Made by a program: the position numbers and the translations under genes. Positions 744 through 20,284 of a stretch of DNA of 20,482 nucleotides are shown here, one piece after another. The notes under the pieces are model-generated. The model searched no databases. It saw nothing but the letters and a program-made list of their open reading frames with translations, and was not told the origin of the DNA. Each line of letters opens with the position of its first letter. Within the stretch, counting starts at the first letter, position 1. Source of the DNA: a virus; IMG/VR virus record IMGVR_UViG_3300042934_000271, positions 1 through 20,482 of that record; one strand, given 5' to 3'.

Positions 744-1169
744 ATGACTGATGCAGTCGCAACCGTTCAGAACTCGGGCCAGCAGCAGCTTGCCAACGTC
801 ACCGAGGGATCGGGTTTCTACTCGTCCCTGGCGATGAACACTTCGGCTGAAAAGCTGGCAGTCCTCCGGGCTGTCAACAACTCCACTCCGCTTCTGGATG
901 CCGTTGGCACTCAGATTGCTATCAAGGACGTGGTTCTTCAGACCGCCACGTTCGTCAACGAAGAGACTGGCGCGATTGAGGATGCCGTTCGCGCAACCCT
1001 CATCGACCCGGACGGCAACGCTTTCCACGCTGCGTCTAAGGGTGTTGCCCTGTCGCTCCGTCAGGCGTTCAACATTCTCGGCCAGCCGGGTACGTGGGAA
1101 GAGCCTCTTCTCGTCACGGTCCGTGAGGGTCGTGTCGGCAAGAACCGCTTCCTGACTCTCGACTTCTGA
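744..1169 (+). CDS. Probable phage ssDNA-binding protein
   Basis: 141 aa. The ATG at 744 is preceded by AAAGGA (734-739). The frame is open upstream to 543, but that part lies in the structured leader and has no ribosome site. The protein resembles small OB-fold ssDNA-binding proteins of phages. Hallmarks are a segment with NEETGAIEDAVRATLIDPDG (about residues 72-91), then an aliphatic SKGVALSLRQ stretch, and a basic, aromatic end VGKNRFLTLDF. Being first in the replication block, ahead of terminal protein and polymerase, matches the position of phi29 gp5 (SSB), which coats the strand displaced in protein-primed replication. It has its own promoter-leader and terminator, consistent with high-level expression. 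The family assignment is from remembered pattern similarity, not a search. Confidence 0.6.
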   Translation: MTDAVATVQNSGQQQLANVTEGSGFYSSLAMNTSAEKLAVLRAVNNSTPLLDAVGTQIAIKDVVLQTATFVNEETGAIEDAVRATLIDPDGNAFHAASKGVALSLRQAFNILGQPGTWEEPLLVTVREGRVGKNRFLTLDF

Positions 1170-1195
1170 GATTCAACATATAATTTAATACCCGG

Positions 1196-1230
1196 AAAAG
1201 GGCCAGTCATTAAATTGGCTGGCCCTTTTT
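1196..1230 (+). terminator. Rho-independent terminator after the SSB gene
   Basis: An 11-bp stem (1196-1206 with 1219-1229) closes a 12-nt loop and ends in a run of five T. It lies 26 bases after the 744-1169 stop. It separates the abundant SSB transcript from the terminal protein and polymerase genes, which would then be reached only by read-through. Confidence 0.85.
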
Positions 1231-1255
1231 GGGCTCTATAGAAAGGTTGCAGCCC

Positions 1256-1447
1256 GTGGATGAAATTTTCTTTGTCGTTACAGGCAAGATTAACACCGTA
1301 ACAATTGCTCGCAGATGTGGCGAGAAGAATTGTATTGCTCTACATCATTTTACAGAAGTTGATGATGCCGATGTTGCGAAGCAGGTTGTTGATGCACTAA
1401 ACGCATCAAATTACGCTCGCACAATTTCTGCTAGACTGTCAGCATGA
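1256..1447 (+). CDS. Small unknown protein, 63 aa
   Basis: I chose the GTG at 1256 because GAAAGG (1241-1246) stands 9 bases before it; upstream TTG codons in the same frame lie in or against the terminator. The product is a small soluble protein with an early beta-type stretch (EIFFVVTGKINTVTI), a Cys pair (R-R-C-G-E-K-N-C around residues 21-27) and a helical C-terminal half. No family recognised. Its stop overlaps the ATG of the terminal-protein candidate (ATGA at 1444), so the two are translationally coupled. The position suggests a replication accessory role, comparable to the small early genes near phi29 gp4/gp5, but nothing in the sequence proves this. Confidence 0.7.
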   Translation: MDEIFFVVTGKINTVTIARRCGEKNCIALHHFTEVDDADVAKQVVDALNASNYARTISARLSA

Positions 1448-2250
1448 GTGAGGCTGCACGGCTCAGAGCCGAACTAAAGAAAAAGCGTCAAGCCGTTTCC
1501 AACAAGATCAATCGCATCCAGAAAACAACAGGCGCAAAGGTGAGTGGATCGGAATTCGATCCCCGCCGAAAGTCTGGCGTAGAGAACACCTACAACGTTC
1601 GCCAGCTTCGCACACACATTGCACAGTTGAACGAATTCATGCAGCGCGGCAATCAGTTCGTAGCCGGTAGCAGGGGTGCACCCATCCCGCGCACACTGTT
1701 TGCCACGTATAAGCGCCTAGAGGGCTATTACGAGCAGGCTCGCGTGCAACATGATAAGAGTGTGTCTGACGTTGTGACGCCGAGTGGGTTGACGGTGGCA
1801 CAGAATAAGGCGATGGTTCCCCAGTCCTCGGGCAGTTCTGTGTATGGTCCGTACCGGGAGTTTGACAGGGAACCGTCAGACATTAAGAATGCCGGTGCTC
1901 TTAAGACTCTTATCGCAGATATGCGTAAGCGTTCAAAGGCCAACTACCTAGATCGTAAGATCAGTGAAGGTAGAGAGAACATTGAAAAGGTTCTCACCAT
2001 TCTCGGGGATCAGGAAAACCTAGAGCGCATCGATAAAATGTCAGACTATCAGTTTGACATTTTCTGGTTCGGTAATCCTGGCGTAGTAGAATCAATCTTT
2101 ATGCACTACGGTATTGAGAAGCAGCGCGCTGCCGGTACACGTAAAGAACAGTGGCAGGATAAGGTGGTTGAAAGTGCCGCAAACGAGCTTGGACCAGTTT
2201 TGGACGACATTGCCGCAAACGTTCCACGAGATCGTCCCGGCAAGAGGTAA
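1444..2250 (+). CDS. Terminal protein (replication primer) candidate
   Basis: 268 aa, against 266 aa for phi29 gp3, and directly upstream of the protein-primed DNA polymerase as in phi29. The N-terminus is strongly basic and helical (RAELKKKRQAVSNKINRIQK, residues 7-26), like the DNA-binding N-domain of terminal proteins. The C-terminal part is mixed and acidic, where the intermediate and priming domains would lie. The 5' GGG genome ends imply that the first nucleotide linked is dGMP. The priming residue would be a Ser, Thr or Tyr in the C-terminal half; I cannot name it. Sequence identity to known terminal proteins is low, as is usual, so the call rests on position, size and charge. It overlaps its upstream neighbour by 4 bases and the polymerase gene by about 77. 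Confidence 0.75.
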   Translation: MSEAARLRAELKKKRQAVSNKINRIQKTTGAKVSGSEFDPRRKSGVENTYNVRQLRTHIAQLNEFMQRGNQFVAGSRGAPIPRTLFATYKRLEGYYEQARVQHDKSVSDVVTPSGLTVAQNKAMVPQSSGSSVYGPYREFDREPSDIKNAGALKTLIADMRKRSKANYLDRKISEGRENIEKVLTILGDQENLERIDKMSDYQFDIFWFGNPGVVESIFMHYGIEKQRAAGTRKEQWQDKVVESAANELGPVLDDIAANVPRDRPGKR

Positions 2251-3979
2251 AAAGGCAAGGGTTAGAAACGGTGTCAAAGACGCGCGCGTCGATTTCTGTG
2301 CAGATTTCGAGACTACGACTGACCCGGCAGATTGTCGTGTATGGGCGTGGGGACTATCGGCGGTACAGAATCCTGGCTATGAATCCGTGGAAGTTGGCAC
2401 GGAGATATCGTCTTTCATTGAGCGTATTTCGAGACAGAACGGGACATGCTACTTCCACAATCTCAAATTCGATGGTCATTTTATTCTATATTGGCTTTTG
2501 ACTAATGGCTACACTCATATCGAAGACGACGATCTATTCGAGAATGGCACCTTTAAAACCCTTATCTCGGATATGGGCATGTTTTATTCAATTACAGTAC
2601 GGTGGAAAACTGGTCACAGTACAGAGTTTCGGGATTCGCTTAAGAAACTCCCTATGGGTGTTCGCAGAATTGCAACGAGTTTCAAGCTGGAAATGTCCAA
2701 AGGTGATATTGACTATGAAGCGTATCGCGCTCCCGGCCACAAGCTCACCCCAGATGAAGAGGACTATCTACGACGGGACGTAAGCATCATTGCTCAGGCA
2801 ATGAAAACCGTTATTGATAGCGGGATGAAGAAACTCACTGTTGCCAGTGACGCCATGAATGAGTTTAAGCAACTCAATGGTATGGACTACTTCTCAAAGA
2901 TGTTCCCAGTTCTCCATGACGATATGGACAGGGAAATCCGCAGGGCTTACCGTGGCGGTTTCACATATGCCGACCCTAGGTTCAGCGGCAAGGTTAACGG
3001 CTCGGGCGTTGTTCTCGATGTGAACAGTCTCTACCCATCGGTGATGAAGAATTATCCCATCCCCTACGGCATCCCACTCTTCAAAAAGGGTGAAGTGCTG
3101 CCCACCGATGATCGGCCTCTTACTATTTTTAGTATCACGTTTACTGCCAAGCTGAAGCCTGGGCACATTCCGTGCATTCAGATCAAGGGTAGTAATCGGT
3201 TTGTTGGTACCGAGTATCTACGTGAGATTACAGAGCCCACTACTCTTATGGTGAGTAACGTTGACTGGGATTTGTATAACGATCACTACGATATTGAAGT
3301 GTTGGCTTACGGTGGCGGGTGGCGCTTCCGAGCTATTAAAGGCATGTTTGATTCGTATATTGATAAGTGGTCCGAAATCAAGGCTAATGAAACGGGTGGT
3401 AAGCGTGAAATTGCAAAGCTACATCTTAATAGTCTGTATGGTAAGTTTGCAAGTAATCCCAATGTCACATCCAAGATTCCAATTCTCGAAGATGGAAAGG
3501 TACGGCTCAAGCGCGGCAACCCGGAGACTCGTCCTCCCGTTTACACGGCGGCGGGTGTTTTCATTACTGCTTACGCACGAGACATTACTATTAGAGCAGC
3601 GCAAGCCAACTACGAAAGCTTTGCGTATGCGGATACTGACTCACTGCATCTACTTCAAGATTCGGCTCCCGAATCGTTGGAAATCCATCCTAGTAAACTA
3701 GGTGCATGGAAATTTGAGTACGCCTTTCACAACGCTTATTACATTCGTCCTAAGGCGTATCTTGAATTGAAACATTATGAAATGAAGAACGATGAGCGTG
3801 ACTACTCATGTGACGGTGAGTATGAGAACCGGATTGCAGGTCTGCCTGTAGACGTTTCCAAACAACTCACTTTTGATGATCTTGTAGAGGGAAAGATTTT
3901 GCATGGCAAGCTCAACCCACAGATCGTCCCCGGTGGCGTGGTTCTGCGAGATGTGCCTTTCGAGTTGAAACTTTCTTAG
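2174..3979 (+). CDS. Protein-primed family B DNA polymerase
   Basis: Clear homologue of phi29 gp2 (575 aa). Numbered from the GTG at 2174 (601 aa), Exo I is DFETTTD at 44. Exo II YFHNLKFDG is near 93, and Exo III YLRRD is near 198. Motif A DVNSLYP is at 282, motif B KLHLNSLYGKF at 415, motif C YADTDS near 485 and the KAY form of KxY at 527. The C-terminus VPGGVV also matches. All catalytic Asp/Glu residues are present, so both exonuclease and polymerase should work. phi29-type polymerases prime from the terminal protein, displace strands and are highly processive. The start is uncertain: no ATG, GTG or TTG lies close to Exo I in this frame. GTG 2174 has the best ribosome site (AAGGTGG, 2161-2167), while TTG 2189 and TTG 2210 are weaker. 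Confidence 0.97.
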   Translation: MPQTSLDQFWTTLPQTFHEIVPARGKKARVRNGVKDARVDFCADFETTTDPADCRVWAWGLSAVQNPGYESVEVGTEISSFIERISRQNGTCYFHNLKFDGHFILYWLLTNGYTHIEDDDLFENGTFKTLISDMGMFYSITVRWKTGHSTEFRDSLKKLPMGVRRIATSFKLEMSKGDIDYEAYRAPGHKLTPDEEDYLRRDVSIIAQAMKTVIDSGMKKLTVASDAMNEFKQLNGMDYFSKMFPVLHDDMDREIRRAYRGGFTYADPRFSGKVNGSGVVLDVNSLYPSVMKNYPIPYGIPLFKKGEVLPTDDRPLTIFSITFTAKLKPGHIPCIQIKGSNRFVGTEYLREITEPTTLMVSNVDWDLYNDHYDIEVLAYGGGWRFRAIKGMFDSYIDKWSEIKANETGGKREIAKLHLNSLYGKFASNPNVTSKIPILEDGKVRLKRGNPETRPPVYTAAGVFITAYARDITIRAAQANYESFAYADTDSLHLLQDSAPESLEIHPSKLGAWKFEYAFHNAYYIRPKAYLELKHYEMKNDERDYSCDGEYENRIAGLPVDVSKQLTFDDLVEGKILHGKLNPQIVPGGVVLRDVPFELKLS

Positions 3980-4090: not shown

Positions 4091-4489
4091 ATGGCAAAGG
4101 CAGACGAGCAGGTTCAGGCAGCCGACGTGCAGGACGACGAAATCGTCTTTGGTACGTGGAAGAGTGCCGAGAAGGCAAACCCCTACACGGATATCGTCAA
4201 GCAGCTTGCAGAGGCACCCGCTGACGAGAACGGTGATGACCCGTCGGTGACGATCAAGGTCAACGCTAAGGAAGCTGCCAATCGTCAGCTTCTCTTCCAG
4301 AAGGCAGCGAACGCTATCGGCAAGACGGCTCGCCTGCGTCACACCGACGCGAGCGGTTCTGCCGTGATCGGCCAGACGGCGAAGGGTCGTGACATTCGTG
4401 AGGGTGTCATCAAGTTCACCTTCACGCTGTCGCAGAAGCACAGCCAGCGTCGCGGCAAGGGTGAGAACGAGACTCCCGCTGCCGAGTAA
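4091..4489 (+). CDS. Unknown 132-aa protein, probably abundant
   Basis: The ATG at 4091 follows GAAAGG (4078-4083) by 7 bases. I do not recognise the family. The N-terminal third is acidic (E/D-rich, with DDEIVFGTWKSAEKANPY). The middle is helical and Ala/Lys-rich (KEAANRQLLFQKAANAIGKT). The C-terminal part alternates basic and hydrophobic residues and ends in a Lys/Arg-rich tail before an acidic last segment. A small charged protein with its own promoter, a 5' hairpin and a strong terminator suggests a highly expressed nucleic-acid-binding protein. It could be functionally comparable to phi29 p6, but there is no sequence evidence for that. Its codons are more uniform and G/C-ending than those of the polymerase, as for the SSB gene, supporting high expression. 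Confidence 0.85.
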   Translation: MAKADEQVQAADVQDDEIVFGTWKSAEKANPYTDIVKQLAEAPADENGDDPSVTIKVNAKEAANRQLLFQKAANAIGKTARLRHTDASGSAVIGQTAKGRDIREGVIKFTFTLSQKHSQRRGKGENETPAAE

Positions 4490-15594: not shown

Positions 15595-15905
15595 TGCCTA
15601 AGCTCGTCAAGTATGAGACTCCGCTAGAAATCATAACCGGGGACTACTGGCAGCAGACAGTAGACATTACTAGTGCCGCCAATTACACCAATTGGCGGGC
15701 ACAGTGGCGACCGGGATTTGACCACCCGGTAGCTATTGATCTTGACATTTCGGTGTCTGGAACAAAAATCACAATGTCTGCACAACCTGACAAAACCCGT
15801 AAGATGGGTGGAGAAGGTGTCATCGATCTTGAGGCGGAACCGGGACCGCGAACCTTTATCCGCTTTGAAACAATCGGTGAAAAGGATGTGACTCGTGTCG
15901 GATGA
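15594..15905 (+). CDS. Small beta-sandwich protein, fibre-associated candidate
   Basis: 103 aa; the ATG at 15594 overlaps the previous stop. The sequence alternates strands with the order ITGDYWQQTVDIT, WRAQWRPGFDHPVAIDLDI, and SGTKITMSAQPDKTRKM. This resembles the N-terminal fold of phage baseplate/fibre proteins of the BppU type, in which a D/G-containing opening strand is followed by a substitution strand and a KITxxx strand. It overlaps the collagen-like fibre by 11 bases, as a chaperone or adaptor of that fibre might. The fold resemblance is weak. Confidence 0.7.
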   Translation: MPKLVKYETPLEIITGDYWQQTVDITSAANYTNWRAQWRPGFDHPVAIDLDISVSGTKITMSAQPDKTRKMGGEGVIDLEAEPGPRTFIRFETIGEKDVTRVG

Positions 15906-16734
15906 CATTCTGATCGAAGATGAAGAGCCGGAAGTTATCACTGTCTATCTCGGGGAGCCGGGTGCTAAAGGTGACAAGGGTGATCCCGGTACACCAGGTG
16001 CTCCCGGTGCTCCCGGTCAGCCGGGCACACCTGGCACCAATGGCACCAACGGTACAAACGGCACTAATGGCGTTGACGGTGAAGACGGTGCTCAGGGTCC
16101 ACAGGGCATCCCCGGTGTAAAAGGTGACAAGGGTGATAAAGGCGATACCGGTGACACCGGTCCGGCTGGTCCGGCTGGTCCGGCAGGTGGTGGTGGCATT
16201 GGTATGCTGCCAAAATCGGGCGGGTTTCTACAGCCTCTAGCAGGGGCAGCGTGGGGAACAAGTGCGGGAGCATTTGCTAGTGGTCAAACATTCCTTGTGC
16301 CAATCATTGTTGCTAAGGAAATGACGATTGATAAGCTTTCCTGTCGCGTTGCCACGTCTGAAACGGGTATCGGTGTAAGACTGCTTCTCTACTCGTCCGA
16401 TGCCGACGGTTGGCCTCTCACTCTTGTTGCACACGGTGCGGCAACGTCAGGTGCAGCAGGGCAGCTTAACGTAACGTTCAGTAGTGTCACAATCCCTGCC
16501 GGATTGTATTGGGCAACCATTCGCAGCAATGCAGGATCAACACTGCGATTCTGGGCGCTCGCCTCTAACAGCATTGTGACTCTCAACACAGCGGGTAGTG
16601 GTGGGGATCAGCGAAACGCCATTGCTCGGGCAGATGTAGGCACTTACGCCACACCAACTACCCCGCTGACCGGTGTAACGTCTGTGGCAGCAACAAGCTC
16701 CGATGTGCCTTTCGTAGCGATAGGGAGAGTATAA
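15895..16734 (+). CDS. Collagen-like fibre protein
   Basis: 279 aa. The GTG at 15895 follows AAAGGA (about 15881-15886). Residues 20-97 are 26 uninterrupted Gly-X-Y triplets, with four GTN in a row and two KGD/TGD-rich blocks. They form a triple-helical stalk flanked by an acidic N-terminal peptide of about 19 residues. The C-terminal 180 residues are a beta-rich Ala/Thr/Ser domain with no Cys, suited to be the trimeric head. Such proteins act as head or tail fibres and often bind the host surface. phi29 has gp8.5 head fibres, made of a coiled coil instead of collagen; this could be a functional counterpart. It lies after the ATPase and the membrane genes, apart from the other structural genes. 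Confidence 0.9.
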   Translation: MSDDILIEDEEPEVITVYLGEPGAKGDKGDPGTPGAPGAPGQPGTPGTNGTNGTNGTNGVDGEDGAQGPQGIPGVKGDKGDKGDTGDTGPAGPAGPAGGGGIGMLPKSGGFLQPLAGAAWGTSAGAFASGQTFLVPIIVAKEMTIDKLSCRVATSETGIGVRLLLYSSDADGWPLTLVAHGAATSGAAGQLNVTFSSVTIPAGLYWATIRSNAGSTLRFWALASNSIVTLNTAGSGGDQRNAIARADVGTYATPTTPLTGVTSVAATSSDVPFVAIGRV

Positions 16735-17738: not shown

Positions 17739-17765
17739 AGGGGAAATTGGCACAAGCCAAAATTT

Positions 17766-17805
17766 AACCGTGGGGGTCTATTTCAGACTCCCACGGTTAT
17801 TTTGT
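17766..17805 (+). terminator. Rho-independent terminator closing the late region
   Basis: A 14-bp stem with one G-T pair (17766-17779 with 17785-17798), a 5-base loop and ATTTTG after it. It stands about 30 bases after the 17544 gene stop and separates the late region from the DnaA-box region. An A/T-rich stretch on the left side allows weak function in the other direction. Confidence 0.87.
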
Positions 17806-18265
17806 GTTTACACAAAACGACATTTTTAAAAAGCTGAAATCGTAAATTCAACTTGAAATGTTTGGGTTGCGCGATACAGGGATTTTGGACGGCTTTGTGT
17901 TGGTACAAAGTTATCCACAGGCTGTGGATAACCCTGTGGATGACTCTCCACAGTTCATCCACAGACTGTGGATAACTCAAAAATCAAGCCGACACGCCGA
18001 TTTTGTAGGAAAACTCAAAAAGATTTTTCGTTACAAAACCGTTACCTAGCTCCCAGCTAAAACTCAGGTTCAAAACTGTGGACAACTGTGGATAACTCGA
18101 ATAAATCTGTGGATAACTACCCGTTTTCTGTGGATAAGTCAGAAAAACCTGTGGATAACTCGCCCCGCTAAATCCCCAAAGCCGCGTAAAATCAACGTTT
18201 TCCCTGTGGATAACCCTGTGGAGAGCTAGACTGAACCTGCACGACCCCGACAGATTGGAAACGAA
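17806..18265. other. oriC-like non-coding region with DnaA-box cluster
   Basis: 460 bases with no gene that I support. TTATCCACA or its complement TGTGGATAA occurs exactly eight times: 17911 (+), and in the complement orientation 17923, 17967, 18087, 18108, 18129, 18150 and 18205. One-mismatch forms lie at 17935, 17955 and 18077; the last is TTGTCCACA in complement, the streptomycete-type box. A/T-rich flanks lie at about 17806-17861 and 17976-18076. The left cluster makes two near-copies of an 11-bp head-to-head inverted repeat (17910-17932 and 17954-17976). This is what a bacterial DnaA-dependent origin looks like. Its role in a protein-primed genome is unknown: extra origin, DnaA titration, or regulation of the operon that starts at 18266. 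Confidence 0.85.
18077..18158 (-). repeat. Phased DnaA-box array, 21-bp period
   Basis: Four exact TGTGGATAA units start at 18087, 18108, 18129 and 18150, each exactly 21 bases apart, with one variant unit 10 bases before the first. All point the same way. Twenty-one bases equals two helical turns, so bound proteins would sit on one face of the DNA. The bases between units differ, so this is not simple tandem duplication of a longer unit. Confidence 0.9.
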
Positions 18266-18922
18266 ATGTTCACTCGCCCCACTCGCCCCGCCTACCGCGA
18301 ATACCGCGTAACCGTTGAAAACGAATACGGCGGGCGCACCAATAGCCGGAATAGCAACCCTGCTAACCCGTTCTATTCGTTCTCAGAAGCGCGCATGGAA
18401 CAACGACGCGCCAACAACAAAACCGCGCGCATCGAATACCGCGATAGCCCGGTGGCCGAATGGTTCCGCATTGACACCGTGCACAACGGCGAGTGTGGGG
18501 CAGCTTGCACCCCCGATTCATGCCCCTACCTCCGCGCCTACGTTCGCGGTGAAGGTGAGTATAACCACTATCTGTCATGGCTTGCAGCCGGTTGCCCGGA
18601 GCTTGACGAAAACGGCAACCCCGTAAGTGAGGCTGCAACCCCGATTGAAACCGCCGTTGACACGGCAGACAAAATCATTGCAGCGGACGGCGACATCCCC
18701 GCATTCCGGTATCGCCTCATGCCCTCATACGTGAAGCCGAACGGTGAGCGCTACGAATGGTCATTCGTAGGCGTATACGACGGTCAAACGGCAACCGACA
18801 TGATTTGGTCAACACTCGGCAGAGAGTCATACGCACCGAACGGTGAGCGAGTGACCATTACGCAAGTTCGGATGATTGACGAATCGGGCCGCGCGTCGAG
18901 TGTTTGGAAGAGTGGCGAGTAA
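18266..18922 (+). CDS. Unknown 218-aa protein, first gene of the right operon
   Basis: The ATG at 18266 follows GGAA (18257-18260). A possible -10 box TAGACT at 18227-18232 lies between it and the last DnaA-like boxes, without a good -35 box. The N-terminal 60 residues are basic and Arg/Asn-rich (TRPTRPAYREYRVTVENEYG, SEARMEQRRANNK). A Cys-containing stretch CGAACTPDSCPYLRAYV near 77-93 could bind metal or form a knuckle. The C-terminal 80 residues look like two strand-turn units with the repeated signature PNGER (about 173 and 204). No known family. The gene is more G/C-rich than its followers, suggesting a different history. As the first gene after the DnaA-box region it may be an early regulator. 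Confidence 0.8.
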   Translation: MFTRPTRPAYREYRVTVENEYGGRTNSRNSNPANPFYSFSEARMEQRRANNKTARIEYRDSPVAEWFRIDTVHNGECGAACTPDSCPYLRAYVRGEGEYNHYLSWLAAGCPELDENGNPVSEAATPIETAVDTADKIIAADGDIPAFRYRLMPSYVKPNGERYEWSFVGVYDGQTATDMIWSTLGRESYAPNGERVTITQVRMIDESGRASSVWKSGE

Positions 18923-19161
18923 TGGCAAACAAAATTACCGGAACCGTTGAATACGTTGAACGGCTCGGCACTTCAAAATACGGTAACCCGTATTTCAAGG
19001 TTGCAGTCATAGCCGTTGACGGTGAAGTTACCGTGCTACGAACACAAATTGACTCGTCAATCAACTATGCGATTAGCAACCCCGAATATCAGGAAAACGT
19101 ACATACTTTCAAGCTCACAGAAGCTTGCCGAATCTATGGAAGCGAAAAGCACAATGTCTAA
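18922..19161 (+). CDS. Small OB-fold-like protein, 79 aa
   Basis: The ATG at 18922 shares a base with the previous stop (TAATG). An upstream in-frame ATG at 18904 is less likely because it lies inside the previous gene. The protein starts KITGTVEYVERLGTSKYGNP and continues with alternating strands (YFKVAVIAVDGEVTVLRTQI) to a PEYQENVHTFKLT strand. This is a small beta-barrel pattern seen in many actinophage early proteins of unknown role; a nucleic-acid-binding OB fold is possible. It overlaps the next gene by 8 bases, typical of this operon. Confidence 0.8.
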   Translation: MANKITGTVEYVERLGTSKYGNPYFKVAVIAVDGEVTVLRTQIDSSINYAISNPEYQENVHTFKLTEACRIYGSEKHNV

Positions 19162-19501
19162 GACAATCAAAGTCAACGGAAACACATATCACATTTCGTG
19201 TAACTATCACCCGCGCGAATTGAGAACCTTTTACGACATTCCCCTAGACATTCGTAACACATGGTTTAACTATGTGACAGTGGATGATGACACACATTAC
19301 GACAATCGATTCTTTGAATACCGTGGCAGTTGGTACGACTCGCAGGAATTCGAGGCTGCAAGTCACGACATTAAGCGCATGGGTTTCGACGGCATCCAAA
19401 CGTCAAGCTATTTCGATGCTGTGATCCTGCAATATTTCGACCGGGACGGTAACCCCTATGACGATTACAATTCTGTCGTAGTCGCACATATTCATTGGTG
19501 A
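19154..19501 (+). CDS. Unknown 115-aa acidic, aromatic-rich protein
   Basis: I chose the ATG at 19154, with GGAAG (19139-19143) ten bases before it; the longer frame to 19016 lies inside the previous gene. The product is rich in Tyr, Asp, Phe and His (NYVTVDDDTHYDNRFFEYRG near 39-58) with short strands and a helix FEAASHDIKRMGFDG. It has no signal or membrane segment. The excess of acidic and aromatic residues in a small early protein recalls phage proteins that mimic DNA or block host enzymes, but there is no recognised match. Confidence 0.8.
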   Translation: MSKTIKVNGNTYHISCNYHPRELRTFYDIPLDIRNTWFNYVTVDDDTHYDNRFFEYRGSWYDSQEFEAASHDIKRMGFDGIQTSSYFDAVILQYFDRDGNPYDDYNSVVVAHIHW

Positions 19502-19504
19502 CAT

Positions 19505-19732
19505 ATGCTAATCACACTCAGACTCGAATACCAGACACGCACACATGATTATTGGGTCGTAGGCCATGGCAACAGTTTGCGCACGGTCCACACAAAACGC
19601 GGATCACTCAATGGAATGGATAGGCTACGCCACGCAATACAACGCGCTGTAGGACCGAATACAGCGACACTAAGTTTCCTCGGCAACCGTCGGATGAATG
19701 GCAAGTGGATTACAGAATGGATAATGCAATGA
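19505..19732 (+). CDS. Unknown basic 75-aa protein
   Basis: The ATG at 19505 lies 3 bases after the previous stop, with GGTGAC (19497-19502) as ribosome site. The protein is basic: LRLEYQTRTHDYWVVGHGNS, then a helix GMDRLRHAIQRAVGP, then a strand with NRRMNGKWITEWIMQ. A beta-alpha-beta arrangement with Arg-rich surface suggests nucleic-acid or nucleotide binding. I recognise no family. The stop overlaps the next ATG (ATGCAATGACA near 19724-19732). Confidence 0.75.
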   Translation: MLITLRLEYQTRTHDYWVVGHGNSLRTVHTKRGSLNGMDRLRHAIQRAVGPNTATLSFLGNRRMNGKWITEWIMQ

Positions 19733-19878
19733 CATTCCCTAAGCCGCAAGACATGCACGTTATGGAAATTGAAATAACACTCAAGAATTACGGCATCAAA
19801 GAATCAATGTTTTCTGAATGGTCAGATGAAGAGGCCAGGCGAATTGGTGAATTGCTAATTGAATGGAGCAAAAGATGA
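19729..19878 (+). CDS. Unknown 49-aa acidic protein
   Basis: Small frame missed by length-limited gene finding. ATG 19729 overlaps the previous stop and TGA 19876-19878 overlaps the next ATG, so it completes an unbroken chain of overlapping genes. GGA at 19719 is a weak ribosome site. The sequence (begins TFPKPQDMHVMEIEITLKNY) is followed by a helix with SEWSDEEARRIGELLIEWSK. It is probably a small helical early protein. Confidence 0.65.
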   Translation: MTFPKPQDMHVMEIEITLKNYGIKESMFSEWSDEEARRIGELLIEWSKR

Positions 19879-20159
19879 TACTTACTGCAATGATTGATCC
19901 GATTACAAAGAATTGGATTGATGACAATCCCTTTAATGCGGGTGAAGATTTTATGTGCCACTTTTATCACATGGTTTATCGCATGCCAGAAAACAAAAGT
20001 GTGTTGCGATGGTCACCAATTGAAATCCAATATCTACGTAGGGCACTATTCCGAATTCTAAAGGTGACCGGGTGGACACCTATGCACAGTTTCATTATTC
20101 GGGAAACTAGCGACTATGGAGTAAAGACAATCGGCAACCTATTGAAAGGAATTGACTAA
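19875..20159 (+). CDS. Unknown 94-aa protein
   Basis: I chose ATG 19875 with GGAG (19865-19868) six bases before it and ATGA overlap with the preceding stop; an in-frame ATG at 19863 gives four more residues. The protein has an N-terminal part LTAMIDPITKNWIDDNPFNA, aromatic/His segment MCHFYHMVYRMP, a helix IEIQYLRRALFRILKVTG and a C-terminal helix. The helix-turn-helix-like organisation of residues about 45-90 may mean DNA binding, but no motif is certain. Overlaps the next ATG by one base (TAATG). Confidence 0.75.
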   Translation: MILTAMIDPITKNWIDDNPFNAGEDFMCHFYHMVYRMPENKSVLRWSPIEIQYLRRALFRILKVTGWTPMHSFIIRETSDYGVKTIGNLLKGID

Positions 20160-20284
20160 TGAAAGCTCACCCTACTCACAACATGTATTACAACCCCATT
20201 ATTTTCGGCAAAGTATGCGTGCAATGTAACGCATGCGAATGTCACAATTCGGGCGCACTCATTGAAGAGTGTGAGAATAGCTAA
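20159..20284 (+). CDS. 41-aa Cys-rich miniprotein
   Basis: ATG 20159 shares a base with the previous stop (TAATG), and AAAGGA at about 20145-20150 is a very good ribosome site. The sequence contains CVQCNACECH, i.e. C-x2-C-x2-C-x-C-H, plus one more Cys near the end (EECENS). This looks like a small zinc-binding knuckle. It is the last gene of the right operon, directly before the terminator. Too short for most gene finders, but the coupling and ribosome site support it. Confidence 0.7.
   Translation: MKAHPTHNMYYNPIIFGKVCVQCNACECHNSGALIEECENS

Follow-up and report, generated by a model that had tools for sequence, protein, structure and literature searches.

The locus studied here raises the question of why a phage whose replication should not need DnaA carries a dense cluster of DnaA boxes resembling a bacterial oriC. 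The window, namely the whole stretch of DNA analysed in this study (20,482 bases), represents a complete-looking genome of a phi29-type phage, and the protein-primed character ascribed to it by an earlier note was borne out by inverted terminal repeats and by genes for SSB, terminal protein, and family-B polymerase. As in a linear phi29-like genome, GGGTAAGAGTCCGCACAAAC at the left end recurs as its reverse complement at the right end, with 20 bases shared by both ends. The protein-primed replication genes occupy 744..3979 on the plus strand, as revealed by profile and sequence matches, and comprise the phi29-like set of a phi29-type SSB (744-1169, plus strand; PF17427, 4.9e-11), a terminal protein (1444-2250, plus strand; PHROG terminal protein, 4.9e-6), and a family-B DNA polymerase (ending at 3979, plus strand; PF03175, 1.6e-70). 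The polymerase is 58% identical to those of Curtobacterium phages, and the closest named polymerases (50-58% identity) belong to phages of Curtobacterium, Microbacterium, Arthrobacter, Glutamicibacter, and Actinomyces and to one Rhizobium phage. A search of genome contigs for a host genome, using the packaging ATPase, gave no match.

The main genes of the window are transcribed rightward. A strong Rho-independent terminator with a 15-bp stem (17765..17799, plus strand) ends the late operon immediately to the left of the boxes, and such a terminator likewise stands before the cluster in relatives (L026 and L025 by scanning, the others from sequence). To the right, an operon of small genes (18266..20284, plus strand) was delimited by the ORF list and profile search, with ORFs at 18266-18922, 18922-19161, 19154-19501, 19505-19732, 19705-19878, 19863-20159, and 20159-20284, all on the plus strand. 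Four of these genes gave no convincing match against Pfam and PHROGs, and a search of viral contigs for homologues of the first gene found none. Elsewhere in the window, the late operon encodes a collagen-like protein with GXX repeats (15895-16734), and the small protein encoded after the polymerase (4091-4489) belongs to a family that is placed within the right operon in L006 and L127 and is also present in box-less relatives.

The exact box, TTATCCACA/TGTGGATAA on the two strands, occurs eight times between the late-operon terminator and the right operon, together with three one-mismatch boxes, all within 303 bases (17911-18213). This count agrees with the eight exact and at least three near boxes of the earlier note, whereas the range given there, 17806-18265, corresponds to the whole intergenic stretch holding the boxes, from just past the terminator up to the next ATG. 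At one mismatch or fewer, the window contains 15 matches, compared with an average of 4.33 and at most 10 after shuffling; order-2 simulations of the genome averaged 0.11 exact boxes and never exceeded 3, against 8 observed in the cluster and 0 outside it. Since multiple TTATCCACA boxes were thus found at counts far exceeding both the shuffles and the simulations, the cluster is real and not a product of chance. The G+C content is 0.42-0.44 across the cluster, compared with about 0.50 around it.

The boxes are arranged in two modules. Module A (17911..17975) consists of exact boxes at 17911(+), 17923(-), and 17967(-), one-mismatch boxes at 17935(-) and 17955(+), both reading TCATCCACA, and a degenerate copy with two mismatches at 17944(+); the steps are 9-12 bp, and this layout is largely common to 10 related phages. 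An inverted repeat, CTTTGT-N6-ACAAAG (17893..17910), abuts the first box; a TTGATACAAAG form of it occurs at the same place in L127, L104, and L153, and the box-less L002 has a similar motif. A linker of the form TTCGTTACA..ACCGTTACC..CAGCT.A..CTCAGGTTCAA (18027..18076), recognisable in L025 and partly in L104, leads to module B (18077..18158, minus strand), in which a one-mismatch box at 18077 (TTGTCCACA) is followed by exact boxes at 18087, 18108, 18129, and 18150, these last four at an exact 21-bp step. The last exact box (18205-18213, minus strand) is followed by the degenerate box TGTGGAGAG (18217-18225, minus strand). From seventy exact boxes, an extended consensus, CTGTGGATAACTC, was derived, which is longer than the 9-mer core.

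Comparison with IMG/VR relatives, gathered via the packaging ATPase or via the box pattern, revealed the cluster at the same place and in much the same layout in ten related contigs (L006, L023, L025, L026, L028, L038, L104, L127, L153, and L155), in all of which it lies just right of the late terminator. An assembly artefact or a captured host oriC was rejected as the source of the cluster, because the terminal repeats match and the cluster recurs in these ten other contigs. All of the ATPase-nearest relatives (>60% identity) that reach far enough right carry it (L023, L025, L026, and L028); several late genes of L127 are 81-87% identical to those of the window, and L080 has a looser form of the cluster with 21-bp steps. 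No cluster was found when fifteen named actinobacterial or Rhizobium relatives and B103 were scanned. The earlier note knew of no such cluster in phi29 relatives; its absence holds for the fifteen named relatives but fails for the ten uncultured ones. In the ATPase tree, the cluster-bearers included did not form one clade (7 changes); thus, gain, loss, or mosaicism must have been involved.

What is kept among the bearers is the geometry of the array. The offsets of module A are about 0, 12, 24, 44, 56, and 68 bases in most bearers, with partial departures in L006, L025, and L023, and the position of the offset-44 box is retained despite a change of strand (plus in the window and L038, minus in L104, L153, and L155). 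Pairwise mismatches amounted to 18/333 in boxes against 21/95 in spacers (Fisher p 5e-6), a contrast between non-independent pairs that comes mainly from those involving L153; within the L026/L028/L038 trio, spacers and boxes are equally conserved. In diverged pairs, the 60-bp flanks are still more variable than the spacers. Module B forms a 21-bp tandem array in both the window and L025, with differing lengths. The number of boxes varies, from small arrays of 5-6 boxes in L023 and L155 to 8-14 near-consensus boxes per genome in some of these small phages.

Concerning the protein that would recognise these boxes, their core is identical to the bacterial DnaA box, CTGTGGATAACTC is also found in an actinobacterial oriC, and actinobacterial oriC regions likewise show 12-bp steps and extended boxes. 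Furthermore, CTGTGGATAACTC-like boxes at about 21-bp steps are present in noncoding DNA of two unrelated phages, Klebsiella phage ZK1 (L396, 2447-2626) and Lactococcus phage 949 (L395, 2501-2875). These arrays suggest that the common binder is a host protein rather than a phage protein. Among the right-operon genes, with the relatives' left-end genes outside the comparison, no family was common to all bearers. Host DnaA is favoured because of the DnaA-box core, the likeness to oriC, the arrays in unrelated phages, and this lack of a common right-operon family. A scan of genome contigs for the module A pattern returned mostly matches with no recognisable dnaA adjacent, and so neither identifies the host nor proves mimicry of oriC.

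The same observations bear on the alternative that a DNA-binding protein encoded by the phage, and not DnaA, recognises the repeats and controls the right operon. Such a binder would be expected to change with the phage, and in the same intergenic slot L030 (13915-14040) and L032 (10690-10900) carry unrelated arrays, of GTGTATTACATA-like and TTCGATTTTTG-like repeats, respectively, in place of DnaA boxes; a consensus exceeding the 9-mer would also fit. We nevertheless regard this alternative as unlikely, given the exact DnaA-box core, the occurrence of CTGTGGATAACTC in an actinobacterial oriC, the similar arrays in the Klebsiella and Lactococcus phages, and the lack of a shared family in the part of the genomes compared. 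The repeats of L030 and L032 suggest that the slot's binding protein differs between related phages and that the slot can serve other regulators; since these two phages have other repeats and the named relatives lack the cluster, the group can do without DnaA control.

The relatives also suggested a link between the boxes and a promoter. In L026, L028, L038, and L153, TTGACA is located exactly 17 nt past the last box, and in L155 it lies 17 nt past a degenerate TGTGGAAAC box, so that three lineages, with five relatives in all, show this spacing. The 17 nt between box and TTGACA show no relatedness in sequence among L153, L155, and the L026/L028/L038 group, and the chance that three of eight lineages share one offset was estimated at about 8e-7, a rough, post hoc value that takes the lineages as independent. 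Weak -10 elements accompany TTGACA. The window, L127, L025, L023, L104, and L006 lack TTGACA at this distance, and a scan for consensus promoters from the terminator to the first right-operon gene of the window found none. The window contains TAGACT (18227..18232, plus strand) 13 nt after the last exact box, a weak, possible -10 element of the right operon with no consensus -35; TATGCT in L025 and TACACT in L080, both 11 nt after the last box, weakly resemble it. Because of the lack of a consensus promoter, the promoter link is made in the window by analogy, and a promoter at its cluster is putative.

Downstream of the promoter, L038 and L153 encode a strongly folded RNA (z -5.5 and -7.2, respectively). 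A conserved folded RNA, GTGAGCGACC.AGCACC...AGAGTGC.TTGCAACAAC, was observed in L006 (14334-14484), L038 (15108-15258), and L153 (13455-13605); its L038 and L153 versions are closed by a long stem. By its position and shape, it may be a packaging RNA (pRNA-like). The model built from it matched none but its three source phages and left the window unmatched. The left noncoding region of the window folds unremarkably, and a search for known RNA families (Rfam) and tRNAs in the window gave nothing credible.

Of the three roles that had been proposed for the cluster, DnaA-controlled transcription of the right operon ranks first, titration of DnaA, possibly simultaneous, second, and a secondary origin last. 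Control of a promoter is the best reading because the array keeps its position behind the late terminator and, in five relatives, its phasing to TTGACA, and we consider it moderately probable that the cluster is a control region of the right-operon promoter bound by host DnaA. DnaA binding, the sign of the regulation, and titration are all inferred. DnaA is known both to activate and to repress transcription, and it stimulates that of lambda (PMC8203912; PMC7466680); at the right operon, activation is favoured, with repression possible. DnaA would load cooperatively on the fixed 12-bp grid of module A and the 21-bp grid of module B and contact RNA polymerase at the downstream promoter, and right-operon expression would then follow the cellular level of free DnaA, probably in its ATP-bound form. 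In some relatives, expression of the pRNA-like RNA might also track free DnaA. Accumulating phage copies, with 8-11 boxes per genome, would probably titrate DnaA in addition, which could lower host initiation and reset the promoter.

Titration could also be the main function, in that the array would act as a sink for host DnaA as phage copies multiply, stopping new rounds of host replication and freeing nucleotides for the phage. It is established that plasmid-borne boxes titrate DnaA in E. coli (PMC5835720), and the 8-14 near-consensus boxes that some of the small genomes carry, the retention of boxes while flanks vary, and the differing length of the module B tandem array between the window and L025 are all consistent with a sink. 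A sink could lie anywhere and at any distance from TTGACA, whereas the array is invariably placed after the late terminator and 17 nt separate it from TTGACA in five phages; moreover, arrays of 5-6 boxes, as in L023 and L155, would be poor sinks. We therefore hold a predominant sink to be possible but rather improbable.

The last of the proposed roles, a secondary internal origin of the oriC type operating beside protein-primed replication from the ends, draws on the many boxes, the lower G+C content, and a layout reminiscent of actinobacterial oriC. A search for the DnaA-trio unwinding element beside the boxes revealed a longest run of 1 in both the window and L025; among the controls, five trios in a row were detected in the Rubrobacter oriC and none in a second actinobacterial oriC. 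The genome encodes its own terminal protein, TP-type polymerase, and SSB, and a partial scan of its proteins recognised neither a helicase nor a loader. Such an origin is thus very unlikely.

Returning to promoter control by DnaA, its broadest form would make host DnaA the main regulator of a group of phi29-like phages: the array would read the DnaA level for the right operon, and in some phages for the pRNA, while titration of DnaA by the growing number of phage genomes would turn the array into a switch that senses copy number and prevents host initiation as well. We offer this extension as a speculation, with the odds rather against it. If promoter control by DnaA is true, a virus whose replication should not need DnaA keeps a conserved DnaA array that couples its gene expression to the replication state of the host.

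Host-regulator sites in phages and the action of DnaA on phage promoters are already known; our search of the open-access literature turned up no conserved oriC-like DnaA array in phi29-like phages, and a 2024 review of phi29-like phages leaves DnaA unmentioned (PMC11476376). Bacterial oriC and datA clusters resemble the array in their many near-consensus boxes at short regular spacings, whereas the window lacks a DnaA-trio, its array sits between a terminator and a phage operon, and it is not an origin so far as tested. The arrays of ZK1 and 949 share the box type, the step, and the noncoding location but belong to unrelated phages (Autographiviridae and Audreyjarvisvirus, respectively); our literature search found no functional account of them, and their occurrence suggests that the strategy is more general. 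The pR/ori-lambda region carries few DnaA boxes. There, host DnaA serves as a transcription factor on a phage promoter (PMC8203912; PMC7466680), as is putatively the case here, but in an unrelated phage, tied to the origin that lambda itself uses, and with no regular 12/21-bp array. Alphaproteobacterial phages carry arrays of host CtrA sites, which are likewise dense and intergenic, serve a regulator of the host cell cycle, and lie near the promoters of small uncharacterised genes, but the motif is that of CtrA and not the DnaA box; the same authors sought an uneven distribution of DnaA sites in these phages and found none (PMC9437464). The closest parallel in phage type is phi29 itself, whose promoters, according to that article, carry sites for host Spo0A (Meijer et al. 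2005, cited in PMC9437464). Both cases concern a phi29-type phage with several promoter-associated sites for a host master regulator; the phi29 sites differ in that they bind Spo0A and not DnaA, in a Bacillus host, where binding suspends the lytic cycle during sporulation, and form no oriC-like array. If the reading given here is true, DnaA joins Spo0A, LexA, and CtrA among the host regulators that phages exploit.
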